Below are positions 1,684 to 48,949 of a DNA stretch of 51,641 nt, in pieces (positions within the stretch are counted from its first letter, which is position 1; every line of letters starts with the position of its first letter). Source of the DNA: Rhodocyclaceae bacterium (GTDB lineage Bacteria > Pseudomonadota > Gammaproteobacteria > Burkholderiales > Rhodocyclaceae); contig JAABQX010000008.1 of the NCBI GenBank assembly GCA_011391215.1, forward strand, positions 1 through 51,641. Direction: 5' to 3'. The notes beneath the pieces are model-generated. The model was given only the letters and a program-made list of their open reading frames with translations. It did not search any database and was not told where the DNA came from. Made by a program: the position numbers and the translations under genes.

Positions 1684-1708
1684 AAAAGTCGGCGCTAGCG
1701 GGACGGCG
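1684..1708 (+). repeat. Interspersed A-run/GTCGGCG element, copy 1
   Basis: One mismatch to the 20-base core GTCGGCGCTGGCGGGACGGC, preceded by AAAA. It lies in the 210-base divergent intergenic region between the kinase and the antiporter genes. The following bases (to about 1735) can form imperfect GC-rich hairpins. Confidence 0.8.
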
Positions 1709-1741
1709 CTGCCGGATGAGTCAGCCGGACTCCGCCTCGAA

Positions 1742-1747
1742 TAGAAT
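1742..1747 (+). promoter_or_regulatory. Possible -10 box for the antiporter gene
   Basis: TAGAAT lies 76 bases before the antiporter ATG. No good -35 is visible at 17-18 bases, so this is a weak call made because the same hexamer recurs upstream of smpB and typA. Confidence 0.3.
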
Positions 1748-1823
1748 GCCCAACACGCAAACCACCGTCTCGCGTGCCGGAATCACGTTGCGTGCTTGTT
1801 AGCTTTGTCGGAGGTCACTCTCG

Positions 1824-3044
1824 ATGTCCCTGTTGGCCAGCCTCCTCCTGCTGATCGTCGCCGCCCGCCTGTTGGGCAAGCTTTTCGGCCGTTACGGCCA
1901 TCCCGAACTGATCGGGGAAATCCTCGCGGGGGTATTGCTTGGGCCGGCGCTGCTGGGCCTGATCAAGCCCAACCCGGCGCTGGCGGGCATCGCGGAATTG
2001 GCCGTGTTCCTCATCATCCTGAGCGCCGGCCTGGAGATGCGCTTCACCGAAATTATCGCCGCCATGCGCGGACGCGGCATGCTGCTGGCGCTGATTTCCT
2101 TCGCCCTCCCCTTCGCCTCCGGCGCAGCGGTGGCCGCCGCTTTCGAGCTCGACCTGATGCGCATGATTTTCCTCGGTCTGTGCATCTCCATCACCGCCCT
2201 GCCCGTTGCCGTCAAGCTGCTCGACGACCTCGGCATCCTGCATACCCGGATTGCCCACTATTCATTGGCCACCGCCGTGGTCAACGATGTCGCCGCGCTG
2301 TTCATTCTCGGCATTGTCCTCAACATGCCACAGCAGTCCTCGCTCGGCGAGGCTGTCAGTACGGTCATGGTCGCCACCTGGAAGCTGGGCGCCCTAGCCC
2401 TGATTGCCCTCTCGCTCAACTGGCTGCTCTCCTGGCTGGAACGCAAGGACATCAACGTTCAAACGATTCCGGAGAATCTGGTGCGTGTGTTCGGCGCCGA
2501 GGCTCTCTTCGGTATCGTGATCGTGTTTGTGCTGATATTCGGCACGATCAGTGAAATGCTGGGGTTCCACTTCGTCATCGGCGCGTTTTTCGGCGCGCTG
2601 TTCCTCGACAAGCGGCACTTTCTGGCCTCCCGCTACGAAGACCTGCGCGGCACGTTATCGTCGATCACGAGCGGATTTCTCGCGCCCGTGTTTTTCGCCT
2701 ATCTGGGTCTGGAATTCAGCCTCGCCACCTTCGACGACATTGCGTTCCCGCTAATCGTCATTGGCGTTTCGGTCGCTTCGAAACTCCTCTCCGGCTGGAT
2801 CGGCGGACGGCTGATCGGCATGCCGCATCGCGAGGCGATTGGCCTGGGTTGCGTGTTGAACGGCCGCGGCGTCATGGAGTTGGTGGTCGCCGGCATCGCC
2901 TACCAGAAGGGCTTCATCGGGGCGACCATGTTCTCGACGCTCGTGCTGATGGGAATCGTCACAACCTTCCTCACCCCGCTTCTCTTCAAGCGGGTATTTC
3001 CCGCCGAGAAACTCGCCCGCTACAGCAAGTCAGCGGCACCGTAG
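1824..3044 (+). CDS. Cation:proton antiporter, CPA2 family (Kef/NapA-like transporter domain)
   Basis: 406 aa, almost entirely hydrophobic, with about 12 membrane segments typical of a Na_H_Exchanger domain. N154-D155 in the AVVNDVAALF segment matches the conserved N-D pair at the ion-binding site. The late motif NGRGVMELVVAGIAY is typical of CPA2 members. There is no C-terminal RCK/TrkA-N domain, so it is not a complete KefB/KefC. It exchanges Na+ or K+ for protons across the inner membrane. The substrate cannot be fixed from sequence alone. The ATG at 1824 has a GGAGGT ribosome-binding site at 1810-1815. It is transcribed away from the KdpD-like kinase. Confidence 0.85.
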   Translation: MSLLASLLLLIVAARLLGKLFGRYGHPELIGEILAGVLLGPALLGLIKPNPALAGIAELAVFLIILSAGLEMRFTEIIAAMRGRGMLLALISFALPFASGAAVAAAFELDLMRMIFLGLCISITALPVAVKLLDDLGILHTRIAHYSLATAVVNDVAALFILGIVLNMPQQSSLGEAVSTVMVATWKLGALALIALSLNWLLSWLERKDINVQTIPENLVRVFGAEALFGIVIVFVLIFGTISEMLGFHFVIGAFFGALFLDKRHFLASRYEDLRGTLSSITSGFLAPVFFAYLGLEFSLATFDDIAFPLIVIGVSVASKLLSGWIGGRLIGMPHREAIGLGCVLNGRGVMELVVAGIAYQKGFIGATMFSTLVLMGIVTTFLTPLLFKRVFPAEKLARYSKSAAP

Positions 3045-3058
3045 CATTTCGGCAGTGC

Positions 3059-3064
3059 GATAAT
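3059..3064 (+). promoter_or_regulatory. Possible -10 box for mfd
   Basis: GATAAT sits 28 bases before the mfd ATG in the 47-base gap after the antiporter gene. No convincing -35 is visible, so this rests on one hexamer. Confidence 0.3.
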
Positions 3065-3091
3065 TCGCCCTCCGTTTCGCAAAGTTTTCCC

Positions 3092-6000
3092 ATGCTTCCC
3101 TTGCAGTCCCTGCCGGCCGGCCCCAAGCCCGGCCAGCGCATTGCCCTTCCGGAATACGCCGCTTCCGCCGACGCGCTTGCCATCACCCAACTCGCGGACG
3201 GCAAGCGATTGCTCGCCGTCGTCACCGCCAGCCCGCTCGAAGCGCAGCGCCTCGCCGAGGAAATCGTCTGGTTCGCGCCCGCCCTGCGCGTTCATCTGCT
3301 GCCCGACTGGGAAACCCTGCCCTACGACCACTTTTCGCCACATCAGGACCTGATCTCGGAACGGCTGGCGACCCTGTTCGCCGTCACGCAGGGGCAGTGC
3401 GACGTCCTGATTGTCGCCGCATCGACGGCGGCCACCCGTCTCGCACCGCCTGCTTTCCTCGCCGCCCATACCTTCTTCATGAAAAAGGGCGACAAGCTCG
3501 ACCTGGCCAAGCTGCGCGCCCAGATGACGCTGGCGGGCTACCAACATGTCACGCAGGTGGTCGCCCCCGGCGAATACAGCGTGCGCGGCGGGCTGATCGA
3601 CCTGTTCCCGATGGGCACGTCATTGCCCTACCGCATCGAACTGTTCGACGACGAGATCGAGACGTTACGCAGCTTCGACGTCGATTCGCAGCGCACGCTC
3701 TACCCGGTGCCGGAAATCCGCCTGCTGCCGGCGCGCGAAATGCCGGCCGGCGAGTTAGGGCGCACGACCTTCCGCCAGCGCTTCCGTGACACATTCGAAG
3801 GCGATGCCTCGCGCATTGCGCTCTACAAGGATGTCTCGAACGGCATCATGCCGGCCGGCATCGAGTATTACCTGCCGCTGTTCTTCGACGAACAGAACGG
3901 TTGCGCCACACTGTTTGACTATCTGCCGCAGGGAGCGACCCTGCTGCTGCACGGCGACGTATCGGCCGCGCTCGCCGAGTTCTGGACCGACCTGCAGGGG
4001 CGCTACAAGATGCTTGGCGGCGACCGCGCCCGTCCGGTGCTGCCGCCGCAGGAACTTTTTTTACGCGACGAAGCGTTCTTCGTCGCCGCCAATACCTTTC
4101 CACAGTTCCTGCAAAAAGTCGGCGCTGGCGGGACGGCGAAATTGCCCCCATTGGCGGTTGACCGCAAGGCTGAAGATCCGCTGGCCGCGCTAAGGCGTTT
4201 CCTCGACGATTTCCCCGGTCGCGTGCTGTTGCTGGCGGAATCGCCAGGCCGGCGCGAAACCCTCAACGAATATCTCGCCGAACACGATCTCTACACTGCG
4301 GCCTGCGCCGACTTCGCCGCTTTCGTTGCCGGAGAAGCGCGCCTGATGCTCGCCACCGCGCCGCTTTCGGGGGGCTTCGTTCTGGACGACTGCGCGGTCA
4401 TCACGGAAAACGAGCTCTACGCCGCGACCGCCCGACCGCGTTACAAACGTTCCGATGCGCGCCGCGCCAATCTCGAAGGCTGGCTGCGCGACCTCTCCGA
4501 GCTAAAAATCGGCGATCCGGTGGTGCACGAAAATCATGGCATCGGCCGCTACCTCGGCCTGGTGCACATGGATCTGGGCGACGGCAATGAGGAATTCCTG
4601 CATCTCGAATATGCCAATGAGGCCAAGCTCTACGTGCCGGTCGCCCAGCTCGAAGTCATCTCGCGCTACAGTGGCATCGACCCCGAGGCCGTACTGCTGC
4701 ATACGCTCGGCTCCGGCCAATGGGACAAAGCGAAGCGTAAAGCCGCCGAGCAGGTGCGCGACACAGCCGCCGAGTTGCTGCACCTCTACGCCCAGCGCGC
4801 CGCGCGCCAGGGCCACGAGTTTTCCTTCAAGACTGCCGATCTTGAATCGTTTTCTGCGGGTTTTGGCTTCGAGGAAACCCCCGACCAGCTCGCCGCGATC
4901 GGCGCGGTCATCACCGACATGATTTCGGGCAAGCCGATGGATCGCCTCGTCTGCGGCGATGTGGGATTCGGCAAAACGGAAGTAGCCATGCGCGCCGCCT
5001 TCGTCGCCGTCGCCGACGGCAAGCAAGTCGCCATACTCTGCCCGACCACCCTGCTCGCCGAACAGCATTACCAGAACTTCGCCGACCGCTTCGCCGACTG
5101 GCCCGTCAAGGTCGCCGAAATCTCGCGCTTCAAGTCGAAGAAGGAACAGGACGAAGCCATCCAGTTGCTCGGCCAGGGCAAGATCGACATCCTCATCGGT
5201 ACCCATCGGCTGTTGCAAAAGGATGTGCAATTCGACCGCCTCGGCCTCGTCATCATCGACGAGGAACACCGTTTCGGCGTGCGGCAGAAGGAGGCCCTCA
5301 AGGCGCTGCGCGCCGAGGTGGACGTGCTGACCCTCACCGCCACACCGATCCCGCGTACTTTGGGGCTGTCGCTCGAAGGACTGCGCGACTTCTCGGTGAT
5401 CGCCACGCCCCCGCAGAAACGGCTGGCCATCAAGACCTTTGTGCACAAATGGTCCACCGGCCTGGTACGCGAAGCCTGCCTGCGTGAGTTCAAGCGCGGC
5501 GGCCAGGTCTACTTCCTGCACAATGAGGTCGATACCATCGAGAATATGTGTGACCGGTTGCAGAAATTACTGCCAGAAGCGCGCATCGTCATCGGCCACG
5601 GCCAGCTTCCCGAGCGCGAACTGGAGCGTGTGATGCGCGAATTTACCCAGCAGAAGCACAATCTGCTGCTCTGCTCGACAATTATCGAAACCGGCATCGA
5701 TAATCCACACGCCAACACCATCGTCATCGATCGCGCCGACAAATTCGGCCTGGCACAGCTGCACCAACTGCGGGGACGGGTCGGCCGCAGCCACCATCAG
5801 GCCTATGCCTACCTGCTCAGCGACGAGCACGCCAAGCCCAGCACGCAGGCGCAACGCCGGCTCGACGCCATCCAGGCGATGGAGGAACTCGGTTCAGGCT
5901 TCTTCCTCGCCATGCATGATCTCGAGATTCGCGGCGCCGGCGAGGTGCTGGGCGAAAACCAGTCGGGCGAGATCCACGAAATCGGCTTTGCCATGTACAC

Positions 6001-6508
6001 CAACATGCTCAACGCGGCGGTGCGCGCCTTGAAAGATGGCAAGGAGATCCCCGATCTCACCCAGCCGCTCGCCGTGACCGCCGAAATCAACCTGCGTGCG
6101 CCCGCCTTGCTGCCGGATGTCTACTGCCCCGACGTGCATGAACGGCTGACGCTCTACAAGCGACTGGCCAACTGCGCGGACGAGGACGCGCTGCGCCTCA
6201 TGCAGGAGGAACTGATCGACCGCTACGGCGAGCTGCCCGCGCAAACCCAGGCGCTCATCGAAACTCACCGCCTGCGCCTACTCGGCCGCCCGCTGGGGAT
6301 CGCCAAGCTCGATGCGGGGCCGAATGCGATCCAGCTGCAGTTCGTGAAAAATCCCCCCATCGATCCGGCGCAGATCATCAAGCTGATCCAGACCGACCGC
6401 AGCTTCAAGCTGGCCGGTCCGGACAAGCTGAGCTGGCAGAAATCCACCGCCACGCTCAAGGAACGGGTCGCCGCAGTGAAAAACCTCTACCGCAACCTCA
6501 CTCTATAA
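3092..6508 (+). CDS. mfd: Transcription-repair coupling factor Mfd
   Basis: 1138 aa, close to the 1148 aa of E. coli Mfd. Mfd is an ATP-driven DNA translocase that removes stalled RNA polymerase at lesions and recruits UvrA. Order: UvrB-like N-terminal region, RNA-polymerase interaction domain around 490-560, then the RecG-like helicase core with Walker A GDVGFGKT at about 622-629, DEEH at about 723, TATPIPRT, the late helicase motif LRGRVGRSHHQAYAYLL, and the C-terminal TRCF domain. The frame is open upstream to 2849, but the homologous start is MLPLQSLPAG at 3092, after the antiporter stop. Residues 342-349 (KVGAGGTA) are encoded by a copy of the interspersed element, in a variable linker before the helicase part. 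Confidence 0.97.
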   Translation: MLPLQSLPAGPKPGQRIALPEYAASADALAITQLADGKRLLAVVTASPLEAQRLAEEIVWFAPALRVHLLPDWETLPYDHFSPHQDLISERLATLFAVTQGQCDVLIVAASTAATRLAPPAFLAAHTFFMKKGDKLDLAKLRAQMTLAGYQHVTQVVAPGEYSVRGGLIDLFPMGTSLPYRIELFDDEIETLRSFDVDSQRTLYPVPEIRLLPAREMPAGELGRTTFRQRFRDTFEGDASRIALYKDVSNGIMPAGIEYYLPLFFDEQNGCATLFDYLPQGATLLLHGDVSAALAEFWTDLQGRYKMLGGDRARPVLPPQELFLRDEAFFVAANTFPQFLQKVGAGGTAKLPPLAVDRKAEDPLAALRRFLDDFPGRVLLLAESPGRRETLNEYLAEHDLYTAACADFAAFVAGEARLMLATAPLSGGFVLDDCAVITENELYAATARPRYKRSDARRANLEGWLRDLSELKIGDPVVHENHGIGRYLGLVHMDLGDGNEEFLHLEYANEAKLYVPVAQLEVISRYSGIDPEAVLLHTLGSGQWDKAKRKAAEQVRDTAAELLHLYAQRAARQGHEFSFKTADLESFSAGFGFEETPDQLAAIGAVITDMISGKPMDRLVCGDVGFGKTEVAMRAAFVAVADGKQVAILCPTTLLAEQHYQNFADRFADWPVKVAEISRFKSKKEQDEAIQLLGQGKIDILIGTHRLLQKDVQFDRLGLVIIDEEHRFGVRQKEALKALRAEVDVLTLTATPIPRTLGLSLEGLRDFSVIATPPQKRLAIKTFVHKWSTGLVREACLREFKRGGQVYFLHNEVDTIENMCDRLQKLLPEARIVIGHGQLPERELERVMREFTQQKHNLLLCSTIIETGIDNPHANTIVIDRADKFGLAQLHQLRGRVGRSHHQAYAYLLSDEHAKPSTQAQRRLDAIQAMEELGSGFFLAMHDLEIRGAGEVLGENQSGEIHEIGFAMYTNMLNAAVRALKDGKEIPDLTQPLAVTAEINLRAPALLPDVYCPDVHERLTLYKRLANCADEDALRLMQEELIDRYGELPAQTQALIETHRLRLLGRPLGIAKLDAGPNAIQLQFVKNPPIDPAQIIKLIQTDRSFKLAGPDKLSWQKSTATLKERVAAVKNLYRNLTL
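4113..4138 (+). repeat. Interspersed element, copy 2, inside mfd
   Basis: Exact match to the 20-base core after five A. It lies in the sense orientation of mfd and reads in frame as K-V-G-A-G-G-T-A. The mfd frame stays open on both sides. Confidence 0.85.
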
Positions 6509-6522
6509 GCGGCTGCGCTCAG

Positions 6523-8673
6523 CTATTTTTCGCTCATCACGATCAGATCGCCACGCTCGCCCGCCTGCAAGCGGCGGTGATGGAGTTTGACGAGGGGATC
6601 GTCCGGGTAGTCTGCCGCAAGCTTGCTGAAAGCCTCGCTTGCCCGAGCATCCTCGCTACGCAGTAACGCAAAGGCTGCCGCATAGGCATCAACGGGCGCA
6701 CGTGCCGCAGCGAGCTCTGCGGCAAGGATCGGCTCGAACACCCCTAGCGACTGGCTTTTACCCTTCAGCACCAGCCGGCCGACCGGACGCACCAGGGTAT
6801 CCGGACAGGTGCCGAGGATGTTTTCGGAAACGCACATCCGCGTGCCCAGATGCTTGTTGACGCTTTCGAGGCGCGCGGCGGTATTCACCGGGTCGCCGAG
6901 GGCGCGGTAGTCGAAAATGTTGGTGCCGCCGAAATTCCCGACGATCACTTCGCCGGCATGCACGCCGATGCGCGTCTTGCCGAAGGGAATGCCGTCATCC
7001 TGGATCTTTTTCGAATAGCGACTGGCGAAGGCATCCATCTCCAGTGCACAGGCCAGCGCCCGCGCCCGGTGATCCGCCTGCGGCACCGGTGCGGAAAACA
7101 TGATGGCCACCGCGTCGCCGACGATACGGTCGAGCGTGCCCTCGTGCCGGAAAGCGATGGCGATCATCTCGTCGAGATAGGCATTCAGCAGGGCGACTGC
7201 CGCACCCGGGTCGATCTTTTCCATCAGGCTGGTGAAGCCGGCCAGGTCGGTGAAGATGAAGCTGCAATCCTGCCGGCGACCACCCAGTTCCATCGCGTCG
7301 GGGTTGTCGACCAGAAAGTCCACGCGGTTGGGCGAGACGTAGCGGGAAAACGCATCCTTGATCCAGCGCTGCTCGCGTTCGCTGGTCAGGTGATGCACCA
7401 GGCTGCAGATGATGAAGGTGAGGATCAGGCCGATCGCCGGGCTGGCCGAGTCGAGCAGCAGATTGTGCTCGACGAAAGCGTACCAGCCGCCACCGAGAAT
7501 GCTGGCGAGCAGCAGCAGGCCGACCGCCGCCGCCGCCAGCGCCCGTGCGCGCAAGGCCAGCATGCCGATCACCAGTCCCGTCACCATCAGGACCAGCGTT
7601 TCGACGCCACGCGCCCAGCTCGGCCGTTCCAGAAAGTGACCGGCCAGGATCTGCTCGATCGCCTGCGCATGCGCCTCGACCCCGGCGATCAGGCCGAAGG
7701 GGTTGAAACGCAGATCCATCAAGCCCTGGGCCGAACTGCCAACCAGCACGATATGGCCGTCCAGCCGCTCGGGCGGCACCTGCCCGGCCAGCACCTGCCA
7801 GGCCGGCACATAACGCGCGGCAACCGGCTTGGTGTAATGCACCCAGAATTCGCCCTGCGGCGTGGTCGGAATCGTCACATCACCGATGCGCACCTCGGCC
7901 AGCCCGCTGTCCTGACCGGCACTTTTCAGGACGATGTTCTGGGTGTTTTGCGCCACCCGCAGCGACTCGCTGACCAGGGTGGCCAGCGGCGTGGTGCCGA
8001 TCTGGAACACCAGCGGCACGCGACGCACCACGCCATCGCCGTCCGGCACGAAGGTCAGCGCGCCATTCCCTCTGGCGGCCGCTTCCAGTGCCGGCAAGGA
8101 AGCCACGGCGCCGGTGAAGGTGTGCAGCCATTTGCTCTGGGGTTCGCCGGAATAGATGAAGCGCGCTTTCTGTTGCGGTATCCGCGCCGGGGCGCTCTCC
8201 GGTGCAGCGGGCTTACCGCGTTCCACCGCGAAGCCGACGACCGCGTCGCCCTGTGCCAGGCTGCGCGCAAACACCTGGTCATGATCGGGCAGCGCCACCA
8301 GATCGCTGCGCAGGCTTCCCGTCAGGTGCCACAGATCGGCAGCGGCCTGCGGCGAGGTACGGTCCGGCTCGGCAAACATCACGTCGAAGCTGACCGCCGC
8401 CGTCCCGCCAGCGCCGAGTTTTTCGAGCAGTTCGGCAATGCGCGTACGCGGCCACGGCCATTGGCCGAGCCGGGACAGGCTTGCATCGTCGATATCGACG
8501 ATGCGCACCGGCACATCGCTGTATTCGCGCGGATGCCAGAGCTGATATTGGTCGAACAGATTATTGCGCAATGCCTGCTGGGGACGGCTGTCAATGACCA
8601 GCAGGAGCAGGCCAAAGAGCACGGGGATGAAGGGCAGGAGCATTTGCCAACGGGAACGGGGTTTCTTTTGCAT
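6523..8673 (-). CDS. CHASE2-sensor adenylate/guanylate cyclase
   Basis: 716 aa. One N-terminal membrane segment (about 11-28) leads to a periplasmic CHASE2 domain (about 35-350, including VRIVDIDDASLSRLGQWPWPR and FDVMFAEPDRTSP). Three membrane segments follow near 360-430, then a class III cyclase domain. The two metal-binding Asp residues are visible: D476 in FIFTDLAGFTS and D520 in DRIVGDAVAIMF. It makes cAMP or cGMP in the cytoplasm in response to an extracytoplasmic signal; the specificity residues were not resolved. It is convergent with mfd (14-base gap) and divergent from the diguanylate cyclase. CHASE2 cyclases are often found near FecR and OmpA-lipoprotein genes, as here. Residues 85-92 (KLGAGGTA) come from an element copy. 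Confidence 0.9.
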   Translation of the reverse strand: MQKKPRSRWQMLLPFIPVLFGLLLLVIDSRPQQALRNNLFDQYQLWHPREYSDVPVRIVDIDDASLSRLGQWPWPRTRIAELLEKLGAGGTAAVSFDVMFAEPDRTSPQAAADLWHLTGSLRSDLVALPDHDQVFARSLAQGDAVVGFAVERGKPAAPESAPARIPQQKARFIYSGEPQSKWLHTFTGAVASLPALEAAARGNGALTFVPDGDGVVRRVPLVFQIGTTPLATLVSESLRVAQNTQNIVLKSAGQDSGLAEVRIGDVTIPTTPQGEFWVHYTKPVAARYVPAWQVLAGQVPPERLDGHIVLVGSSAQGLMDLRFNPFGLIAGVEAHAQAIEQILAGHFLERPSWARGVETLVLMVTGLVIGMLALRARALAAAAVGLLLLASILGGGWYAFVEHNLLLDSASPAIGLILTFIICSLVHHLTSEREQRWIKDAFSRYVSPNRVDFLVDNPDAMELGGRRQDCSFIFTDLAGFTSLMEKIDPGAAVALLNAYLDEMIAIAFRHEGTLDRIVGDAVAIMFSAPVPQADHRARALACALEMDAFASRYSKKIQDDGIPFGKTRIGVHAGEVIVGNFGGTNIFDYRALGDPVNTAARLESVNKHLGTRMCVSENILGTCPDTLVRPVGRLVLKGKSQSLGVFEPILAAELAAARAPVDAYAAAFALLRSEDARASEAFSKLAADYPDDPLVKLHHRRLQAGERGDLIVMSEK
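8399..8423 (-). repeat. Interspersed element, copy 3, inside the CHASE2 cyclase gene
   Basis: One mismatch to the core (CTCGG for GTCGG), preceded by five A, in the sense orientation of the gene. It reads in frame as K-L-G-A-G-G-T-A at the point where CHASE2 proteins usually have a similar E-K-L-x-A-x-G stretch. No hairpin tail is apparent. A normal CHASE2 codon run could resemble the element by chance here. Confidence 0.6.
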
Positions 8674-10990: not shown

Positions 10991-11012
10991 TCATATAGCT
11001 GACGCAATCACC

Positions 11013-11036
11013 TTTGTCGGCGCTGGCGCTACGGCC
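11013..11036 (+). repeat. Interspersed element, copy 4
   Basis: Two mismatches to the core, with TTT in place of the A run. It lies in the 100-base gap before the FecR-domain gene. Downstream bases to about 11055 (GCCCGCCGGCGC) can pair back with GGCGCTGGCG. Confidence 0.65.
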
Positions 11037-12234: not shown

Positions 12235-13314
12235 ATGCAACAAACCGAGAATCTCAACATCGAATCCTTCGACCCGATGCCGACGCCGGAGGAAATCCAC
12301 GCCCGCATCCCCATCACCGATGCGGCGGAAAAGTCGGTGCTGGCAGGACGGCGTGCCATCGAGGCGATCCTCGACCGGCGCGACCCCCGTCTCTTCGTCG
12401 TCGTCGGTCCCTGTTCGATCCATGACCCGGTAGCCGGCCTCGACTATGCGCGGCGTCTCAAGACCCTTGCCGACGAGGTGGCCGATACCCTGGTGCTGGT
12501 GATGCGCGTGTATTTCGAGAAGCCGCGCACGGCCACCGGCTGGAAGGGCTACATCAACGACCCGCGCATGGACGACAGCTTCCATATCGAGGAAGGCATG
12601 CAGAAGGCGCGTGCATTCCTGCTGGCCGTGAATGAACTTGGCCTGCCGGCTGGTACCGAGGCACTCGATCCGATTTCACCGCAATACCTGGGCGACCTGA
12701 TCGCCTGGACCGCCATTGGTGCACGCACTTCGGAATCGCAGACGCACCGCGAAATGTCGTCAGGCCTGTCGACACCGGTGGGATTCAAGAACGGTACCGA
12801 CGGTTCGCTCGACGCGGCGACCAACGCCATCATCTCCGCCTCGAAACCGCACAGCTTCCTCGGCATCAACTCCCAGGGACGCTCGGCCGTGACGCGCACA
12901 CGCGGTAATCGCTACGGTCATCTGGTGCTGCGTGGTGGTGGCGACCGGCCGAATTACGATACTGTCAGCGTGGCGCTGGCCGAGGCCGCCCTGGCCAAGG
13001 CCAAACTGCCACAAAACATGGTGGTCGATTGCTCGCACGCCAACAGCTACAAGAAGCCGGAACTCCAGCCGCTGGTGATGCACGACGTGGTCAACCAGAT
13101 CCGTCTCGGCAACAAATCCATCGTCGGCCTGATGATCGAAAGCAATATCGAGGCAGGCAACCAGTCGATTCCCGAGGACTTGTCCAAACTGAAATACGGC
13201 TGCTCTGTCACCGATGCGTGCGTCGATTGGCCCACTACGGAAAAAATGATTCGCGATGCGTATGACGCACTGCGCGGCCCATTGGCTGGACGGGCCGGAG
13301 GAAAGTCGATCTGA
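12235..13314 (+). CDS. 3-deoxy-7-phosphoheptulonate (DAHP) synthase, type I
   Basis: 359 aa, normal for AroF/G/H enzymes (about 350). It condenses phosphoenolpyruvate and erythrose 4-phosphate, the first step of the shikimate pathway to aromatic amino acids. Visible signatures: FVVVGPCSIHDP, MRVYFEKPRT, GFKNGTDG, the metal-site DCSHANSYKK, and IESNIEAGNQ. The feedback specificity (Phe, Tyr or Trp) was not assigned, so no gene letter is given. The stop TGA overlaps the ATG of the DUF1015 gene by one base, so the two are coupled. Confidence 0.95.
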   Translation: MQQTENLNIESFDPMPTPEEIHARIPITDAAEKSVLAGRRAIEAILDRRDPRLFVVVGPCSIHDPVAGLDYARRLKTLADEVADTLVLVMRVYFEKPRTATGWKGYINDPRMDDSFHIEEGMQKARAFLLAVNELGLPAGTEALDPISPQYLGDLIAWTAIGARTSESQTHREMSSGLSTPVGFKNGTDGSLDAATNAIISASKPHSFLGINSQGRSAVTRTRGNRYGHLVLRGGGDRPNYDTVSVALAEAALAKAKLPQNMVVDCSHANSYKKPELQPLVMHDVVNQIRLGNKSIVGLMIESNIEAGNQSIPEDLSKLKYGCSVTDACVDWPTTEKMIRDAYDALRGPLAGRAGGKSI

Positions 13315-14558: not shown

Positions 14559-14584
14559 AAAAAGTCGGCGCTGACGGGACGGCG
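14559..14584 (+). repeat. Interspersed element, copy 5, after the DUF1015 stop
   Basis: One mismatch to the core, preceded by five A, starting 3 bases after the TGA at 14553-14555 and in the gene's orientation. The tail to about 14607 (GCCAAGCCGAAGCCCCGCC) can pair with GGCG...GGC. Confidence 0.85.
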
Positions 14585-16062: not shown

Positions 16063-17628
16063 TTACTCCCACTCGATTGTCCCCGGTGGTTTTCCAGTAA
16101 CATCATACACAACCCGACTTATTCCTCTGATTTCATTCACTATTCTATTCGAAACACGACCCAGCAGCTCGTGCGGAAGTTCGGCCCACTTGGCGGTCAT
16201 GAAATCTGAAGTTTGAACGGCACGCAGCGCCACGACGTAGTCGTAGGTGCGTCCGTCGCCCATCACGCCGACGCTTTTTACCGGCAGAAAAACGGCGAAA
16301 GCCTGGCTGGTCTTATCGTACCAGTCGGCAGCGCGCAGCTCGTCGATAAAAATGGCATCGGCGCGGCGCAGCAGTTCGGCGAATTCACTTTTCACTTCAC
16401 CGAGGATGCGCACCCCCAAGCCGGGACCGGGGAACGGATGGCGATAGACCATCTCGTGCGGCAGGCCGAGCGCGATACCCAGTTCGCGAACTTCGTCCTT
16501 GAACAACTCGCGCAATGGCTCCAGAAGTTTCAGGTTCAGCGTCTCCGGCAGGCCACCAACGTTGTGGTGGCTCTTGATGGTGTGCGCCTTCTTGGTCTTA
16601 CCGCCAGCGGATTCAATCACATCGGGGTAGATGGTGCCCTGTGCCAGCCATTTCGCTTTCGGCAGCTTCTGCGCCTCGGCCTGAAAAACTTCGACGAACT
16701 CGCGGCCGATGATTTTGCGTTTCTGCTCGGGGTCTGACACGCCCTTGAGGTGGCCTATAAACTGCGCGGTGGCATCGACGTGGATGACCTTAACACCAAG
16801 ATTGCGGGCGAAAGTCTGCATCACCTGCTCGCCTTCGTTGAGGCGCAGCAGGCCGTTATCGACGAACACGCAGGTCAGCTGATCGCCAATCGCCTTGTGT
16901 AGCAGTGCCGCAACGACGGAGGAATCGACGCCACCGGAAAGACCGAGGATTACCTCCTCATCACCCACCTGTTCGCGCACTTTGGCAATGGCTTCCTCGA
17001 CATAACCGGGCATGTTCCAGTCACAGCGGCAACCGCAGATGTCGCGCACGAAGTGAGCAAACATTTCGCGGCCCTTGAGGGTATGGGTGACTTCCGGATG
17101 GAACTGCACGGCGTAGAAACCGCGCGTTTCGTCAGCCATGGCAGCGATCGGCGTAGCGTCGTTACTGCCGATGACCTTGAAACCGGGCGGCAGTTCAGTC
17201 ACCTTATCGCCGTGCGACATCCACACCTCAAGCAAGCCGTGGCCTTCCGCATTGGTGCGATCCTGAATGCCATTGAACAACTTCGAATGGCTACGCGCAC
17301 GCATCTCGGCAAAACCAAATTCGCGCTTGCTGCTGCTTTCGACCTTGCCGCCGAGTTGTGTGGCCATGGTCTGCATGCCATAGCAGATACCGAGCACCGG
17401 AACACCAAGTTCAAAGACGACCTGCGGCGCTTTCCATTCCTCGGCTTCATAGACCGAGTTCGGTCCGCCCGAGAGGATGATGCCAGCCGGCGCAAAGTCG
17501 CGGATGAACTGCTCAGTGACATCGAAGGGGTGCAGTTCGCAATACACCTGCTGCTCGCGCACGCGGCGCGCGATCAATTGCGTGACTTGGGAACCGAAAT
17601 CGAGGATGAGGATTTTCTGGTGGGACAT
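16063..17628 (-). CDS. guaA: GMP synthase (glutamine-hydrolysing)
   Basis: 521 aa from MSHQKILIL at 17628 (E. coli GuaA 525 aa). The frame is open five codons further, but GAGG lies at the right distance before 17628. It converts XMP, glutamine and ATP to GMP. Order: class I glutamine amidotransferase with nucleophile Cys82 in GICYGMQ and HFHPEV-type residues ([10 protein letters not shown]), ATP pyrophosphatase domain with the PP-loop SGGVDSS near 230, and the C-terminal dimer domain ([32 protein letters not shown]). It follows guaB after 63 bases on the same strand, with a terminator-like hairpin between them. Confidence 0.97.
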
Positions 17629-24478: not shown

Positions 24479-24504
24479 CGCCGTCCCGCCAGCACCGACT
24501 TTTT
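24479..24504 (-). repeat. Interspersed element, copy 7, at the stop of the RNA methyltransferase gene
   Basis: One mismatch to the core. Its A run begins within the TAA stop (24503-24505) of the methyltransferase, same orientation. The tail to about 24462 (CCCGCCGCCAGC) pairs with GCTGGCGG to form an imperfect hairpin. Confidence 0.88.
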
Positions 24505-32116: not shown

Positions 32117-33493
32117 CTAACCGGAAACCAGACGATTAATGTCGTTGTAGAACGCCACGGCCATCAATAAAGCCAGCAGCGTCAACCCGATCTGCTGGCC
32201 GATTTCCATAACACGTTCCGAGAGAGGTCCACCCTTGATAACTTCGACGAGATAATACATTAAATGCCCCCCATCCAAAACTGGAATGGGCAGCAGGTTA
32301 AGCACCCCCAGGCTGATGCTGATGAGGGCGAGGAAACGCAGGTAATGACCGCTGCCCATCCGCGCGGATTGGCCGGCGTAATCGGCAATCGTTACCGGCC
32401 CGGAAATATTCTTCACCGACAATTCACCCATCAGCATGCGCCCCATCATGCGCAGGCTGAGCACCGAGGTTTCCCAGGTTTGCGCCAGGGCGCGCCGCAG
32501 CGAGGTACCCATACCATAGCGCACGGTCACCAGGGCACTTTGGCGTAGTTCGGGATCGTCACGCACGGCGATGCCGATACGGGAAACCGGTTTGCCGCCC
32601 TGCTCTTCGACGATTTCCGGTACGACCTTGACCTGTAATTTCAGCGCGTTGCGTTGCACATCCAGCAGTAATTCCCGCGTACCGGCTGCACGAATGATAA
32701 GTGCCAGCTCCTGCCAGGTTTTGATCGCTTGCCCGTCGATAGCAAGTATCTGGTCGTTGGGCAGCAGAGCGGCAGCAGCGGCAGGTGAGCCGGCCTGTAC
32801 CTCACCGAGAATCGGCGGCAATTCGGGGCGCATCAGGCGCAAACCTACGGCCTGCAAGGGATCGGTTTCCAGTGCTGCGCTGTCCAGCCGGCCGACTTCG
32901 AGGTGGTAGGTAGCGATGTTGCCGTGCGCATCGATGGTTTCGAGAGTCACCGCATCGCGATCGAGAATGTGTTGCAATAGTTCCCACCGCAGCTCTGTCC
33001 AGGTCGCTACCGGCACGCCGGACACGGCACGCGCCGTCTCGCCAGCGCCGACTTTTTCCTCTGCCGCCAGCGTACCGGCGGGTGGCGCGGCCAGTATCGG
33101 ACGCGGCTCTTCAACGCCACTCATGAACAGGAACCAATACAGCGCCACGGCAAGCAGCATATTGGCCAGTGGTCCGGCCACGACGATGCAGCTGCGCTTC
33201 AATACACTCTGACGATTGAAGGCCCGGTCCAACTCGTGTGCCGGTACTTCGCCCTCGCGCTCATCAAGCATCTTCACGTAGCCGCCCAGCGGAAAGGCCG
33301 AGATCGCCCACTCGGTATCGTCACGTCCGAAGCGACGCAGCCAGAGCGGTTTGCCGAATCCGACTGAAAAGCGCAAAATTTTCACGTTGCACAAACGTGC
33401 CACGGAGAAATGTCCCAGTTCGTGCACGACGATTAGCACGGCAAGGGCCAGCAGGAATGCGCCCAGAATCCAGAAAAACCCGCTGAAGCTCAT
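32117..33493 (-). CDS. rseP: Site-2 protease RseP
   Basis: 458 aa from [10 protein letters not shown] at 33493, whose ATG overlaps the dxr stop. Intramembrane zinc protease that releases sigma-E by cutting RseA. HExxH at His24-His28 (VVHELGHF), the second metal motif [14 protein letters not shown] near the C-terminus, four membrane segments and two PDZ domains between them. A copy of the interspersed element encodes EKVGAGETA near residue 146, within the first PDZ, without changing length relative to E. coli RseP as far as I can align by eye. Confidence 0.96.
33032..33057 (-). repeat. Interspersed element, copy 8, inside rseP
   Basis: One mismatch to the core after five A, sense orientation. 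It reads K-V-G-A-G-E-T-A in frame. The bases that follow form a small hairpin ACGGC-gcgt-GCCGT. Confidence 0.8.
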
Positions 33494-35462: not shown

Positions 35463-36240
35463 CGCCCGGAACAGCCGTCAAAGTCGGTGATGGCGGGACG
35501 GCAAGCAGTTGCTCGCTGGTGCGGCCGAAGCGCCGCTCACGCTTGCGGAAGCTGGCAATCGCATTGTCCAGCATCGCCTCGTCAAAGTCCGGCCAGAACG
35601 CGTCGGTAAAGAAAAGCTCGCAATAGGCCAGTTGCCAGAGCAGAAAGTTGCTGATGCGCTGCTCGCCACCCGTGCGGATAAATAGATCAGGCTCCGGCGC
35701 ATAACTCATGGCCAGGAACGGCTCCAGATCAGCCTCGGCGTAGTTGCCGACTTTTTCTGGGTAAGCCAGCGCCAAGCCATTGAAGGCCTGCATCAGATCC
35801 CAACGGCCACCATAGTTTGCAGCAATCGTCAGCGTCAGCTTGCCATTGCTGGCAGTGAGATTTTCCCCGCGACGCACCAGGTCGATCAGGCGCGGTTCGA
35901 ATGCAGACAAATCGCCAACCACACGCAGCCGTACGCCGTTCGCATGCAGACGCCCGACTTCGCGCTCGAGTGCGGAGATGAAGAGGTTCATCAGAAAACT
36001 GACCTCCTCCGTCGGACGACGCCAGTTTTCCGAGCTGAAAGCAAACAGGGTCAGGTAGTCGATGCCGCGTTCGATGCAGGCCTTGACGGTGCGCCGGACG
36101 GTCTCGACCCCCTGTTGATGGCCGGCCACGCGCGGCAGAAAACGCTTTTTCGCCCAACGCCCATTGCCATCCATGATGACCGCCAGATGGCGCGGCACGC
36201 TCCCTTGTTCAGGAATACTGCGGGTGGAACTCGTAAACAT
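35455..36240 (-). CDS. uppS: Undecaprenyl diphosphate synthase
   Basis: 261 aa (E. coli 253). cis-prenyltransferase making the C55 lipid carrier for wall and O-antigen synthesis. Signature [16 protein letters not shown] with Asp24, then [13 protein letters not shown], and [35 protein letters not shown]. The C-terminal tail ([16 protein letters not shown]) is longer than usual and its codons overlap an antisense copy of the interspersed element. Confidence 0.96.
35480..35502 (+). repeat. Interspersed element, copy 9, in the uppS C-terminal tail
   Basis: Two mismatches to the core, short A run, antisense to uppS. It covers codons of the non-conserved C-terminal tail (A-V-P-P-S-P-T-L), a place where an insertion would be tolerated. 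Confidence 0.7.
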
Positions 36241-38525: not shown

Positions 38526-38573
38526 AGCGGCGGGGCAGCGGCCTTGCCGCCGTCCCGCCAGCGCCGATTTTTT
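38526..38573 (-). repeat. Interspersed element, copy 10, with hairpin tail between rpsB and tsf
   Basis: The core (38549-38573) has one mismatch (ATCGG), and its A run begins inside the rpsB TAA. The tail completes an imperfect long hairpin: GGCGGGacGGCGGC, loop AAG, GCCGCtgCCCCGCC. No T tract follows, so it is not a canonical terminator. Confidence 0.88.
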
Positions 38574-44283: not shown

Positions 44284-44332
44284 TCGCGCCCTTTTTCGCC
44301 AGATTGCGCATTTAGCCGCGCCGCCCATCCCG

Positions 44333-46156
44333 ATGTCCCGTCCCCTCCGCAATATCGCCATTATCGCCCACGTCGACCATGGCAAGACCACGCTTGTCGA
44401 CCAACTGCTCCGCCAGTCCGGCACCTTCCGCGAAAACCAGCAAGTGGTCGAGCGCGTCATGGACTCGAACGATATCGAGAAAGAACGCGGCATCACGATC
44501 CTGGCCAAAAACTGCGCCATCGATTTTGAAGGCACCCACATCAACATCGTCGACACCCCGGGCCACGCCGATTTCGGCGGTGAAGTCGAGCGCGTGCTGT
44601 CGATGGTCGATGGGGTTTTGCTGCTCGTCGATGCCGTCGAAGGCCCGATGCCGCAGACGCGCTTTGTCACGAAGAAGGCTTTGGCGCTCGGACTCAAGCC
44701 GATTGTCGTCATCAACAAGATCGACCGTCCCGGCTCGCGTCCCGACTGGGTGATCGACCATACCTTCGAACTGTTCGACAAGCTCGGCGCCACCGAAGAA
44801 CAGCTTGATTTCCCGGTCGTCTTCGCCTCGGCGCTGAACGGTTACGCGATGTTGTCGGCGGACGCCCCCGGTACCGACATGCGCCCGCTATACGAGGCCA
44901 TCCTCCAATATGTACCGCCGCCTGATGTCGATTCCGAGGCGCCACTTCAATTGCAAATTTGCTCGCTCGACTACAATTCCTATGTCGGCCGCATCGGCAT
45001 CGGCCGCATCAAGAAGGGCCATATCAAGCCCGGCCAGCAAGTCGCGGTGATGTATGGTGATGAAGCACGCGGTGTAGCGAAAGTCGGACAGGTATTGACG
45101 TTTAACGGGCTGGAACGCCAGACCGCCGTCGATGCCGAAGCCGGCGACATCGTGCTCGTCTCAGGCATCGAACAGGTGGGCATCGGCGTCACCCTCTGCG
45201 CGGTTGACTCACCGGTAGGCATGACGCCGATTTCGGTAGACGAACCCACGCTGACGATCAATTTACAGGTCAACACCTCGCCGCTGGCCGGCAAGGAAGG
45301 CAAATTCGTCACCAGCCGCCAGATCCGCGAGCGGCTCAACAAGGAATTGCTCTCCAACGTCGCCTTGCGCGTCGCCGAAACTGAAAACGCCGACATTTTC
45401 GAGGTTTCCGGCCGCGGCGAACTACATCTCACCATCCTGCTCGAAAACATGCGGCGCGAAGGCTATGAAATGGCCGTCGGACGCCCGCGCGTCGTGGTCC
45501 ATGAACTGCCCGACGGCACCAAGCAGGAACCCTACGAAATGCTCACGGTGGATGTCGAAGATGGCCATCAAGGCGGCGTCATGGAAGAACTCGGCCGCCG
45601 CAAGGGTGATCTGCAAGACATGCAACCGGACGGTCGCGGACGGGTACGCCTCGAATACCGCATTCCGGCACGCGGCCTGATCGGTTTTCAGGGCGAATTC
45701 CTCACGCTCACGCGCGGCACCGGCCTCGCCAGCCACGTTTTTGACGAATACGGACCATGGGCTGGCGTCATGGCCGAGCGGCGCAACGGCGTACTGATTT
45801 CCGCCGAAGATGGCCCCGCGGTCGCTTACGCGCTCTGGAAGCTGCAAGATCGCGGGCGCATGTTCGTCAGCCCCGGCGATCCGCTCTACGAAGGCATCAT
45901 CATCGGCATCCACAGCCGCGACAACGATCTGGTGGTGAATCCGATCAAAGGCAAACAGTTGACCAACGTGCGCTCCTCGGGCACCGACGAAGCCGTGCGG
46001 CTGATCACGCCGATCCAGATCACGCTCGAATCCGCTGTCGAATTCATCGCTGACGACGAACTGGTCGAAATTACGCCCAAGTCAATCCGCCTGCGCAAGC
46101 GCTTCCTCAAGGCGCACGACCGGAAACGTGCCGGACGTGAAGAGACCGACGCCTGA
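44333..46156 (+). CDS. typA: Ribosome-binding GTPase TypA/BipA
   Basis: 607 aa, the same as E. coli BipA. Translational GTPase acting in 50S assembly and stress. G1 [15 protein letters not shown], switch 1 [11 protein letters not shown]3 [17 protein letters not shown]4 NKIDR, then the beta-barrel domain, EF-G-like domains III and V, and the BipA-specific C-terminal domain ([21 protein letters not shown]). It is divergent from the phosphorylase gene. A small membrane-protein frame overlaps its 3' end. Confidence 0.97.
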
Positions 46157-46277
46157 ACTATCGCCTGCCCTGCGTCGCTGGATCTGGCGGCTGGCCATCG
46201 CTGCCGCCATCCTCTCCCTGATCGGCCTGCTGTCCAATCCGGCGGTCATGCCGCTCATGTGCAAGATCTACGGCTAG
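46137..46277 (+). CDS. Small membrane protein overlapping the end of typA
   Basis: 46 aa from GTG 46137 (a GTG at 46128 is also in frame). The peptide has a basic N-terminus ([18 protein letters not shown]), one strong hydrophobic helix (LAIAAAILSLIGLLSNPAV) and a short end MPLMCKIYG. It overlaps typA by 20 bases and ends in a TAG. The single clean helix with positive-inside flank suggests a real small inner-membrane protein. I do not recognise a family, and no strong ribosome-binding site is seen. Confidence 0.45.
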   Translation: MKRPTPELSPALRRWIWRLAIAAAILSLIGLLSNPAVMPLMCKIYG

Positions 46278-46357
46278 CCGCTAAACTTGTGCTTTGTCGT
46301 CACAAGAGATTGAAAGGTGTAGCTTCACATTCGATCTGCGCTCACAAGGAGAAGAAA

Positions 46358-46663
46358 ATGAAACACTTGTTCAAATACGTGTTCCTGACTGCCGGAGCCT
46401 TTGCTTTATTGAATGGCAGCGTCGCCTTCGCCGAGGTCAATAAATGTGTCGGCACCAATGGCAAGGTGCTTTATGGAAGCGATTGCCCCTACGGTACCGA
46501 TGAGAAGAAGGATTTGAAAGGCACTGTCTCGGTCGGCGACAAGGTAAAAGGCAAACCCGCGCCGAAGAGCGGTCCGTCAATCACCTCTATGGAAAACTCC
46601 CGGGCCAAAGAGAAGAAACTGGACTATCAGAAGGCAGATCCCAATGCAGAACTTAAAGAGTGA
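46358..46663 (+). CDS. Small secreted protein with DUF4124-like N-terminus
   Basis: 101 aa from MKHLFKYVF at 46358, with AAGGAGAA at ideal distance; the longer upstream frame has no signal peptide. Signal peptide cleaved after SVAFA, then EVNKCVGTNGKVLYGSDCPYGTDEKKD, with two Cys in the C-x-G-x-N-G-K...Y-x-S-x-C-P pattern of DUF4124 proteins. The rest is polar and Lys-rich. Function unknown. Distinct from the DUF4124 protein at 20201, which has no Cys in that segment. Confidence 0.8.
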   Translation: MKHLFKYVFLTAGAFALLNGSVAFAEVNKCVGTNGKVLYGSDCPYGTDEKKDLKGTVSVGDKVKGKPAPKSGPSITSMENSRAKEKKLDYQKADPNAELKE

Positions 46664-46816
46664 TCCTTTTGCTCCGGTTTTTCTCTGGGGCTGAAGTGAA
46701 GCCTACAGGTTGAAAACTAACATTTCGGTAGCACTTCTCACAACGGAGATTGAAACTTTTACCAAGCTTCAGTTGTCCTAGTATTTACTGGATTTACAAC
46801 AGAAAGGGAATTGTCC

Positions 46817-47506
46817 ATGCAACCGTTCCAGATCGCCCAACAGACCGCTTCCGGCTATGCTGTCCAGCAGCACCGGGTTCTGCGCAACACGTACGCGCTG
46901 CTGGCGCTATCGATGCTGCCCACCGTGGCCGGCGCCCTGCTCGGCATCCAGTTGAATTTCTCCTTTATGGCTGGCAGTCCCTTTATGGGTTTCCTGCTGT
47001 TCCTTGGCATTGCCTGGGGCTTCATGTGGGGCATCGAAAAGACCAAAAACAGCGGCATGGGCGTCGTCCTGCTGCTCGGTTTCACCTTCTTCATGGGACT
47101 GATGCTCTCGCGCATCCTGCAGGTGGCACTGGGCTTCAACAACGGCGCCAGCCTGATCGCCATGGCCGCAGGCGGTACCGGCGCGATCTTCTTCGTGCTG
47201 GCAGGCGTCGCTTCGACCACCAAACGCGACTTCTCCAACCTCGGCAAGTTCCTTTTCGCCGGCGTCATCCTCATCCTGCTGGCGGCCCTGGCCAACGCCT
47301 TGTTCCAGATTCCCGCGCTCGCGCTGGCGATCTCGGCACTGGCCGTGGTGATCTTCTCCGCCTACATCCTCTATGATATCAACCGCATCGTGCAGGGCGG
47401 CGAAGACAACTACATCACCGCCACACTCTCGGTGTATCTGGATGTTTATAACGTCTTTGTCAGCTTGCTGAACCTGCTGATGGCATTCACCGGCGACCGC
47501 GACTGA
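46817..47506 (+). CDS. Bax inhibitor-1 family membrane protein (YccA/YbhL type)
   Basis: 229 aa from MQPFQIAQQTASGYAVQQHRVLRNTYALLALSMLPTVAGALLG at 46817; a TTG two codons earlier is less likely. Seven hydrophobic segments and the family end AYILYDINRIVQGGEDNYITATLSVYLDVYNVFVSLLNLL, with the two conserved Asp residues of the calcium/pH sensor seen in BI-1 homologues. E. coli YccA modulates FtsH; the role here is inferred only at family level. It converges on rlmD with a hairpin between. Confidence 0.92.
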   Translation: MQPFQIAQQTASGYAVQQHRVLRNTYALLALSMLPTVAGALLGIQLNFSFMAGSPFMGFLLFLGIAWGFMWGIEKTKNSGMGVVLLLGFTFFMGLMLSRILQVALGFNNGASLIAMAAGGTGAIFFVLAGVASTTKRDFSNLGKFLFAGVILILLAALANALFQIPALALAISALAVVIFSAYILYDINRIVQGGEDNYITATLSVYLDVYNVFVSLLNLLMAFTGDRD

Positions 47507-47511
47507 ACCTG

Positions 47512-47536
47512 AAAAGTCGGCAGCGGCGGGACGGCG
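47512..47536 (+). repeat. Interspersed element, copy 12, after the BI-1 gene
   Basis: Three adjacent-region mismatches to the core (AGC for GCT in the middle), preceded by AAAA, 5 bases after the TGA and in gene orientation. Its end merges into the perfect hairpin at 47530-47553. Confidence 0.75.
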
Positions 47537-47553
47537 CTCTGCGGAGCGCCGTC
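47530..47553. terminator. Hairpin between convergent BI-1 and rlmD genes
   Basis: Perfect 10-base-pair stem GACGGCGCTC, loop TGCG, GAGCGCCGTC, followed on the plus strand by TTCATTT. A likely bidirectional terminator; the left arm is the end of an element copy. Confidence 0.65.
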
Positions 47554-47560
47554 TTCATTT

Positions 47561-48856
47561 CTAGCGTTCGAAAAGCGCGATCGACTCGACGTGCGAGGTA
47601 TGCGGGAACATGTTGGCAATACCTGCGGCCACCAGCCGATAGCCCTTTTGATTCACCAGCACTTCCGCGTCACGCGCCAGCGTCGCCGGGCTGCACGAAA
47701 CATAGACAATCCGCGACGGCGCATCCTCACCCAGCGACTTGACCAGTTCCATCGCCCCTTCGCGCGGCGGGTCAATCAGCATCTTGTCAAAGTGTCCCCA
47801 GGCGGCCAGGCTTTCCGGCGTCACGGTAAACAGGTTCGCCACGTGATACTCGATGCGCCCGTCCAGGCCATTGAAAACAGCATTCTCCTTCGCCCGCGCC
47901 ACCAGCGGAGCACTGCCTTCGACGCCAACGACCTGAGCGCCCGAACGCGCCAGCGGCAACGTGAAGTTGCCCAGCCCGCAAAACATGTCCGCAATCCTTT
48001 CGCCGGGTTGCACCTTCAGCAACCCGAGTGCCCGCCTCACCAGCACGCGATTAACGTCGTGGTTCACCTGCGTGAAATCGGTGGGACGAAAGCGCAGGGT
48101 GACGCCGAAATCCGGCAGGTCATACGCCGGTTGCAGTGCGTCAGGCGGGTGAAACAGCGTGGCGGTATCGGGCCCGCCGGTTTGCAGGTAGATCACCACG
48201 CCATGCAGGTCGGCGAACGCGCGCACCTTGGCTTCATCCGTTCCCGTCAGCGGCTCGAGGATACGCAGCACCAGCGCCGTCGGGGTGTCGCCCGCCGCCA
48301 CCTCGATCTGCGGCACGCGGTCGGGAATCGACAGTGATCCAACCAGTTCGCCCAATTTCCGCAGCAAGGCAGAAATCGGCGCCGGCAGGACGGCGCAGGA
48401 ATCCATCACCGCCACATAGCTGCTGCGCTTTTCACGAAAACCGACTAGCACCCCCCCCTTTTTATCGATCTTGCGCACCGACAGCCGCGCACGGCGACGG
48501 TAGCCCCAGGCCGGGCCGATGATCGGCGGCAAAATCGTTTCCGGTTTAATCCTCGCGATGTGCCAGAAGGCATCCTCCAGCACGCGCTGTTTGGCGGCCA
48601 CCTGCGCCACCGGCTCAAGATGCTGCATACTGCACCCCCCGCACACACCGAAGTGCGGGCAAGGCGGCGTGACGCGCTGGCTGGAAGCCTTGAGAATCAT
48701 ATCGGCATACGCGCTTTCAAACCTCGGCTTGCGGCGGTACGAGGTATAAGTGACCCGCTCGCCCGGCAGTGCTCCATCGATAAAAATGGCCTTGCCCTCG
48801 ACATGGGCGACGCCATGACCTTCATGATCAAGCGATTCGATAGTGGCGTAATTCAT
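47561..48856 (-). CDS. rlmD: 23S rRNA (uracil-1939-C5)-methyltransferase
   Basis: 431 aa (E. coli RlmD 433). N-terminal TRAM domain ([30 protein letters not shown]), iron-sulphur ligands Cys66, Cys72, Cys75 and Cys154 ([10 protein letters not shown] and MDSC), SAM-binding [23 protein letters not shown], and catalytic Cys388 in [14 protein letters not shown] run of eight G followed here on the coding strand by codons for DKKGGV (48451-48463) is slippage-prone. The RlmD assignment over RlmC/TrmA rests on the TRAM domain and cysteine spacing. Confidence 0.94.
48371..48395 (+). repeat. Possible interspersed element, degenerate copy inside rlmD
   Basis: Three core mismatches and a broken A run, antisense to rlmD, over the codons just after Cys154. 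It could be chance resemblance in GC-rich coding DNA. Confidence 0.35.
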
Positions 48857-48925
48857 GGGTAACGGGCGGAAACCAAAGGGGCGCGATTATAGACGCCGTC
48901 CCCATCTTGGCGGCAGCCCGGCTAT

Positions 48926-48949
48926 GCCGTCCCGCCAGCGCCGATTTTT
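48926..48949 (-). repeat. Interspersed element, copy 13, at the stop of the hydrolase gene
   Basis: One core mismatch (ATCGG). The A run begins inside the TAA (48948-48950), same orientation. The tail to about 48909 (GCTGCCGCC) pairs with GGCGG to form an imperfect hairpin. Confidence 0.88.

Follow-up and report, generated by a model that had tools for sequence, protein, structure and literature searches.

A dispersed 25-bp word with lineage-specific dialects in Rhodocyclaceae genomes: a putative DNA uptake recognition sequence

We have analyzed a short, dispersed DNA word in a contig of 51,641 nucleotides from a Rhodocyclaceae bacterium (GenBank assembly GCA_011391215.1, contig JAABQX010000008.1, positions 1 to 51,641; hereafter the window, meaning this whole stretch), and we propose that its copies are putative recognition words of the DNA uptake sequence (DUS) type, a reading to which we assign a probability of roughly two in three on the basis of sequence comparisons. 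The word is present in hundreds of copies distributed symmetrically between the strands, has a fixed and bounded architecture, is conserved in place as DNA, differs between genera as a set of dialects, and is found in genomes that carry the general genes of DNA uptake; from this we infer that it guides DNA uptake. With somewhat less confidence, we favor the view that the Rhodocyclaceae have a third, independently evolved system for the uptake of self-DNA, one whose bipartite word would have 25 bp, with ends that are conserved and a middle that varies by lineage. It would form dialects in at least ten genera and would have undergone gain, change, and loss within the family.

A search of both strands of the window for the 20-base core, with up to three mismatches, returned 15 matches (2 exact, 7 with one mismatch, 4 with two, and 2 with three), compared with a mean of 0.02 in shuffled sequence, in agreement with a preliminary description of this DNA, which had held that such a set should not arise by chance. 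All 14 copies listed there were recovered, and one was added at 12333 (two mismatches, in the gene for 3-deoxy-7-phosphoheptulonate synthase [DAHP synthase]); the other mismatch classes stood as described, and the two-mismatch class was corrected from three to four. The full element in the draft genome from which the window derives (G000) has 25 bases, AAAAGTCGGCGCTGGCGGGACGGCG. Most of the listed copies are instances of this element; however, the match at 11016 fits the core only and is regarded as degenerate or due to chance, because it departs from the full word at both ends of the core. In four copies, the A run of the word overlaps a stop codon. The copies are as follows; all except that at 11012 match the 25-bp word.

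1684..1708, plus strand: copy with one mismatch, intergenic
4114..4138, plus strand: exact copy, in frame in mfd, encoding KVGAGGTA in a linker
8398..8422, minus strand: copy with one mismatch, in frame (KLGAGGTA) in an open reading frame (ORF) of 716 amino acids without an NCBIfam match
11012..11036, plus strand: core-only match with 7/25 mismatches, ends not conserved; degenerate or chance
12329..12353, plus strand: copy with two mismatches, in the DAHP synthase gene
14560..14584, plus strand: copy with one mismatch, directly past a stop codon
22553..22577, minus strand: copy with two mismatches, within a gene, antisense
24479..24503, minus strand: copy with one mismatch, A run overlapping the stop codon of a gene
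33032..33056, minus strand: copy with one mismatch, in frame (KVGAGETA)
35479..35503, plus strand: copy with four mismatches, within a gene, antisense (AVPPSPT)
38548..38572, minus strand: copy with one mismatch, A run overlapping a TAA stop codon
43425..43449, plus strand: copy with one mismatch, A run overlapping a TAA stop codon
47512..47536, plus strand: copy with three mismatches, intergenic
48371..48395, plus strand: copy with four mismatches, within a gene, antisense
48925..48949, minus strand: copy with two mismatches, A run overlapping a TAA stop codon

The draft genome (2,330,469 bases in 102 contigs, 76% complete) contains 550 core copies, 262 forward and 288 reverse, and 3 matches to the reversed pattern that served as the control for genome-wide counts. 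Two members of the same genus, G017 and G002, were each examined over 400 kb, with genes called by our own codon-usage script. No marked strand bias was seen there (42/39 in G017 and 26/38 in G002), and the copies lay within genes (50 and 45, respectively), between genes (22 and 14), and on gene edges (9 and 5), in DNA that is 88.5% and 88.8% coding; the placement of copies in and between genes on both strands, as first described, extends beyond the window. The mean spacing was 4.9 and 6.3 kb. Clustered regularly interspaced short palindromic repeats (CRISPR), already discounted in the preliminary description, are rejected, since the copies are kilobases apart. When the copies from these stretches (81 and 64) were aligned, the profile was flat, rose abruptly across 25 positions, AAAGTCGGCGCTGGCGGGACGGCAC, and became flat again; the word is thus sharply bounded, and its flanks are not conserved. 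Neither profile showed a palindrome in the standard copy or a hairpin with a T run within the conserved 25 bp, and the hairpin tails that had been attributed to intergenic copies are not a general feature.

Intragenic copies were far more numerous than in synonymous-codon shuffles. There were 7 in the window (mean, 0.9, and maximum, 4, in 300 shuffles), 50 in the G017 stretch (9.6 and 18 in 100 shuffles), and 45 in the G002 stretch (4.8 and 11 in 100 shuffles). Neither shuffle-level counts nor confinement to the window, each of which the preliminary description had said would speak against its element, was found. Two of the six frames dominate, accounting for 39/50 intragenic copies in G017 and 31/45 in G002; the favored frames read AAA GTC GGC GCT GGC GGG ACG GCA (KVGAGGTA) and, in antisense, AVPPAPT, and the peptides are linker-like. 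Nongenic copies often lay within 30 bp of a gene 3' end (21/31 in G017, 11/19 in G002, and 6/8 in the window), counts that stand without a random control.

Orthologous loci were compared for one genome pair, G017 and G002, to which all of the conservation figures refer. When the 64 G002 copies were traced to G017, 48 were kept, 3 were partial, 2 were absent, 10 were gapped, and 1 had no ortholog. BLAST mapping of the 80 G017 copies with full flanks gave 55 ungapped, 7 gapped, 10 partly outside the alignment, and 8 unmatched; the corresponding values for the 64 G002 copies were 48, 6, 8, and 2. Among the copies aligned without gaps, third codon positions had an identity of 0.889 in the word (n = 360) versus 0.759 in the flanks (n = 1892) from G017 to G002, and 0.919 (n = 298) versus 0.762 (n = 1581) in the other direction; random and shifted 25-mers gave 0.77 to 0.79. 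Fisher tests on this excess gave P values of approximately 1e-8 and 5e-11, calculated from rounded proportions and with positions within a copy that are not independent. The excess at third positions indicates that the DNA word is kept, and not the peptide alone. In noncoding DNA, the word was likewise above its own flanks (0.907 versus 0.763 and 0.875 versus 0.783). The linker of Mfd provides a view over more genomes: a K[VIL][GS]-type motif was seen by eye at the same place of a protein alignment in 15/16 genomes, with large insertions carrying a second motif in G008 and G015 and a smaller insertion in G010. In the window, mfd occupies the ORF at 2849-6508, with a called start at 3092.

To delimit the spread of the word, we used a family sample of 297 genomes, in which membership of the Rhodocyclaceae was taken from record titles, and an order sample of 399 genomes, 386 of them outside the family. 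Genera are given arbitrary labels (g1, g2, etc.), and a family genome with at least 100 core copies is termed a carrier. There are 37 carriers among the 297 genomes, with 204 to 784 copies each, distributed over g1 (11/12), g2 (11/12), g25 (1/1), g54 (1/1), g62 (4/4), and g80 (9/9); the genomes next below them are G076 (61 copies), G289 (58), G098 (39), G109 (30), and G166 (28). Within the genus of the window, the counts are 373 to 763 for 17/18 relatives; the remaining one, G006, has 2. The latter genome is 87% complete and encodes ComEC, DprA, and minor pilins; either the word was lost naturally or it was never gained. The Mfd linker of G006 is unrelated (TTRPSVSS). Outside the family, with the 19-base core of the main dialect as the query and up to one mismatch, 22/386 genomes had one to five matches and the rest had none. 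In four genomes of other families, G404 (f38), G035 (f12), G499 (f11), and G357 (f35), the core was matched two to five times, exactly or with one mismatch, possibly through imported DNA or contamination. One record titled Gammaproteobacteria bacterium (L043, JAHJEO) has 518 copies and counts equal to those of the family genome G153, and it is probably mislabeled.

The word is not uniform across the family: genera differ in its middle and at its edges, and these variants are dialects. In G064 (g27), which has 16 core matches, an unbiased word count returned AAAAGTCAGTC, with 12 copies versus 0.01 expected; the fuller word, AAAAGTCAGTCcccGCgGgACGGCG, has similar ends and spacing and a different middle. 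The shared signature, AAAGTC-N12-ACGGC, occurs at least 50 times in 47/297 family genomes from ten genera: g1 (10/12), g2 (10/12), g25 (1/1), g27 (9/11), g39 (1/2), g54 (1/1), g61 (1/1), g62 (4/4), g80 (9/9), and g82 (1/6). Controls with the signature reversed or with its spacing off by one gave 0 or 1 per sampled genome, and the highest reversed-signature count in the family sample was 12 (G326). The dialect profiles are listed below; G055 is taken to be the same genome as G091 (g54), and G046 the same as G062 (g25), their counts being equal, and the profiles of G099 and G076 were poorly resolved.

G000: AAAAGTCGGCGCTGGCgGGACGGCg
G017: AAAgTCGGCGCTGGCgggACGGCAc; G002 alike
G016: AAAcTCGGCGCtGGCGgGGCGGCG
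G055: AAAAGTCGGCGCtGGCGggACGGCGa
G122: aAGTCGGCGCTGgCGnnACGGCG
G046: AAAAGTCGGtGCTGGCGggACGG
G199: AAAAGTCGGCGCTGGtgatACGG
G098: AAAAGTCGACGCTGGggaTACGg
G200: AAAAGTCaGtCgTgGtGGtAC-type; weak, from 7 sites in 59 kb and a single seed

These features recall the two known classes of uptake word. Copy number, dialects, and intragenic bias are described for DUS and for the uptake signal sequence (USS) (PMC3630211, PMC2346458), and discrimination of DNA at uptake by such words is, according to a further source, known only in the Neisseriaceae and Pasteurellaceae (PMC12616744). The DUS of the Neisseriaceae, recognized by the minor pilin ComP, resembles the present word in having hundreds of copies or more, in and between genes, and dialects with a conserved part (PMC3630211, PMC12616744); unlike the present word, it has 10 to 12 bp, an unrelated sequence, and frequent inverted pairs. 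The USS is likewise abundant and asymmetric, with one orientation favored in reading frames (PMC2346458), and its receptor is also unconfirmed, a minor pilin being predicted (PMC12616744). The USS differs from our word in sequence and length, and the Pasteurellaceae are a gammaproteobacterial family. An adjoining A/T-rich stretch is a feature of the USS and a further likeness to the word described here.

By analogy with these systems, it can be envisioned that these Rhodocyclaceae import DNA via type IV pili, that a pilin-type or other surface receptor favors DNA with the 25-bp word, and that ComEC and DprA then bring the word-bearing DNA inside, where homologous recombination would fix alleles that contain the word. 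Such biased import would accumulate and repair the word wherever genes tolerate it, in linkers, at gene ends, and in intergenic DNA, on both strands; divergence of the receptor would let the preferred word drift, and dialects would result. Competence genes, for which the preliminary description had proposed a search, were found, with ComEC in 60/61 chosen genomes (the exception being G018, 83% complete) and DprA above the cutoff in 59/61 (not in G014, and with only a weak match in G019). Pilin genes were identified by the pilin motif in 9/9 genomes searched, and matches to the ComP_DUS family occurred in 272/297 genomes, carriers or not, including 33/37 carriers. In G017, a gene run comprises fkpB-like and ispH genes, a ComP_DUS-family pilin (E value, 1e-10), a GspH/FimT-like pilin, and pilV- and pilW-like genes; fkpB, ispH, pilV, and pilW were named by eye in this run and in that of G006.

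Several observations weigh against an uptake function. The search for a receptor, which comprised ComP_DUS over 297 genomes, clustering of 91 pilin-like ORFs, two operons, and Pfam and PDB comparisons, yielded pilins without showing that any of them tracks the word: the candidate minor pilins do not discriminate, and no tested gene follows its distribution. In the PDB, the pilins matched generic pilins and a single secretion pseudopilin, with no chain named ComP. ComEC, DprA, and the ComP_DUS match are present in noncarriers too; G006, with its two copies, keeps ComEC, DprA, and the ComP_DUS-family and GspH/FimT-like pilins in the same arrangement as G017, and four carriers (G000 [76% complete], G189, G251, and G314) have no ComP_DUS match. 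We found no publication demonstrating that these species are naturally transformable. The length of the word is roughly double that of known uptake words, and head-to-head pairs, frequent among DUS and USS, were rare in the two 400-kb stretches, where a single pair of core copies was no more than 120 bp apart and both copies had the same orientation. Few copies of the word would be expected in foreign DNA; however, the part of G017 without alignment to G002 was not depleted (0.205 versus 0.191 copies per kb), and the corresponding values for G002 (0.174 versus 0.089 per kb) did not differ significantly (P = 0.13). With regard to conservation, over all positions the word (0.895 and 0.907) was close to random aligned 25-mers (0.891 and 0.890), and its excess lay at third positions. 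The noncoding result is weak, as the word (0.907 and 0.875) did not exceed random aligned noncoding 25-mers (0.938 and 0.909) and, with shifted controls at 0.860 and 0.893, fell below the shifted control in one direction (0.875).

The main rival, which we consider unlikely, is a binding site for a chromosome-organizing or nucleoid protein or for one that acts in segregation; the word would then drift in step with the protein. It also predicts a long, bounded, nonpalindromic site that is conserved at third codon positions and has lineage dialects, and close copies were indeed scarcer than expected in the two 400-kb stretches (gaps of <500 bp, 0.025 versus 0.096 and 0.016 versus 0.077). However, strand polarity is absent, both across the draft genome (262/288) and in the G017 stretch (42/39), and the number of copies per 10 kb in one central 400-kb stretch (G017, 2.0; G002, 1.6) can be set against whole-genome averages of approximately 1.8 and 1.3; the terminus was not located by GC skew in these stretches. 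Strand-polarized signals such as FtsK-orienting polar sequences (KOPS) and Chi are rejected, there being no skew. A signal for recombination or repair similar to Chi would also be abundant and kept at third codon positions, as would a modification mark, but the same lack of strand skew makes this type of explanation very improbable; to our knowledge, known Chi words and restriction sites are all far shorter than 25 bp, which further counts against it. It is equally hard to credit a transcription terminator or other RNA signal: many nongenic copies are no more than 30 bp from the 3' end of a gene and three composite copies fold strongly, yet genic copies, on either strand, form the majority in the stretches examined, and the 25 bp contain no hairpin with a T run.

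The preliminary description had also likened the element to repetitive extragenic palindromic (REP) sequences, Rickettsia palindromic elements, and DNA uptake sequences. Of these likenesses, that to uptake sequences fits most of the evidence, and REP fails as a general explanation. Like REP sequences and bacterial interspersed mosaic elements (BIMEs), the word is a short, dispersed repeat in hundreds of scattered copies, and a minority of copies in G017 and G002 form composite inverted-repeat units, some with indels around them. The search for a REP-associated tyrosine transposase (RAYT) that had been suggested gave a divided result, with the Y1 domain in 162/297 family genomes and in 21/37 carriers, including G000, and no match in 16/37 carriers, although the Escherichia coli control was positive; those without a match include the single-contig G017, as well as G002, G012, G004, G001, G016, G007, and G013. 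Because carriers such as G017 lack Y1, REP is rejected as a general explanation, and REP/RAYT and miniature inverted-repeat transposable elements (MITEs) are so rejected also on the lack of a palindrome and the retention of copies in place (of the 64 G002 copies, 48 were kept in G017 and 10 were gapped). Unlike REP/BIME, the word is nonpalindromic, mostly not inserted, and found within reading frames, and no composite unit was seen in the stretches sampled from 13 further genomes; we therefore regard REP/BIME, another RAYT-mobilized repeat, or a MITE as highly unlikely. With respect to Rickettsia palindromic elements, the word is short, nonpalindromic, and mostly not an insertion, although no direct comparison was made.

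The composite units look like local derivatives and not the general form. They are made of partial word copies and occur in G017 (L146, ~10954; L150, ~9841; L156, ~464) and G002 (L175, ~17264-17400); in one G002 case they are in tandem at ~54 bp, and indels surround some of them between the two genomes. Their inverted arm has 6 matches in the G017 stretch (one without a following word) and 5 in that of G002 (two in tandem), and three composite copies fold, as RNA, at -33.9 to -40.5 kcal/mol.

The preliminary description knew of no element that the sequence matches, and this is borne out as far as the literature was searched: the core and five related words had no occurrence there, and among the matches listed, by titles and the starts of abstracts, there was no description of an uptake word in the Rhodocyclaceae. 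If the uptake-word reading is correct, environmental bacteria would supply a third family with such a system, in which the words are longer and bipartite and exist in several dialects; it would make the origin and coevolution of word and receptor testable outside the Neisseriaceae and Pasteurellaceae, and it would indicate lineages in which transformation serves for gene exchange. The word would also, if this is confirmed, be a cheap genomic marker of natural competence in the Rhodocyclaceae.

Some further observations were made. The largest copy-free gap in the G017 stretch (C1:1551440-1573770; L157, L158) spans 22.3 kb, where ~21.7 kb is expected by chance, and has some genes that by eye resemble ParA, IstA/IstB, and an integrase. 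A plasmid search with one window gene gave no match; among virus contigs, 23 stretches with an exact 24-mer were found across the whole collection. Positions 54-1613 of the window encode a 519-amino-acid histidine kinase that matches only the C-terminal half of KdpD. In G076 (L285-L291), there are 8 copies of CTTCTATAGAA in 140 kb versus 0.01 expected, and the main word is also present in a few copies; in G099 (L275-L279, L230-L234), GTGTCGTTGCC has 31 copies in 131 kb versus 0.19 expected and is perhaps a coding repeat. Finally, G023 (L240-L246, L297-L300) has another dispersed repeat, GTGGGAGCTTGCTGTGGGAGC, with ~11 copies in 114.5 kb and a Y1 domain in the genome; we take this repeat to be reminiscent of the REP sequences of Pseudomonas.

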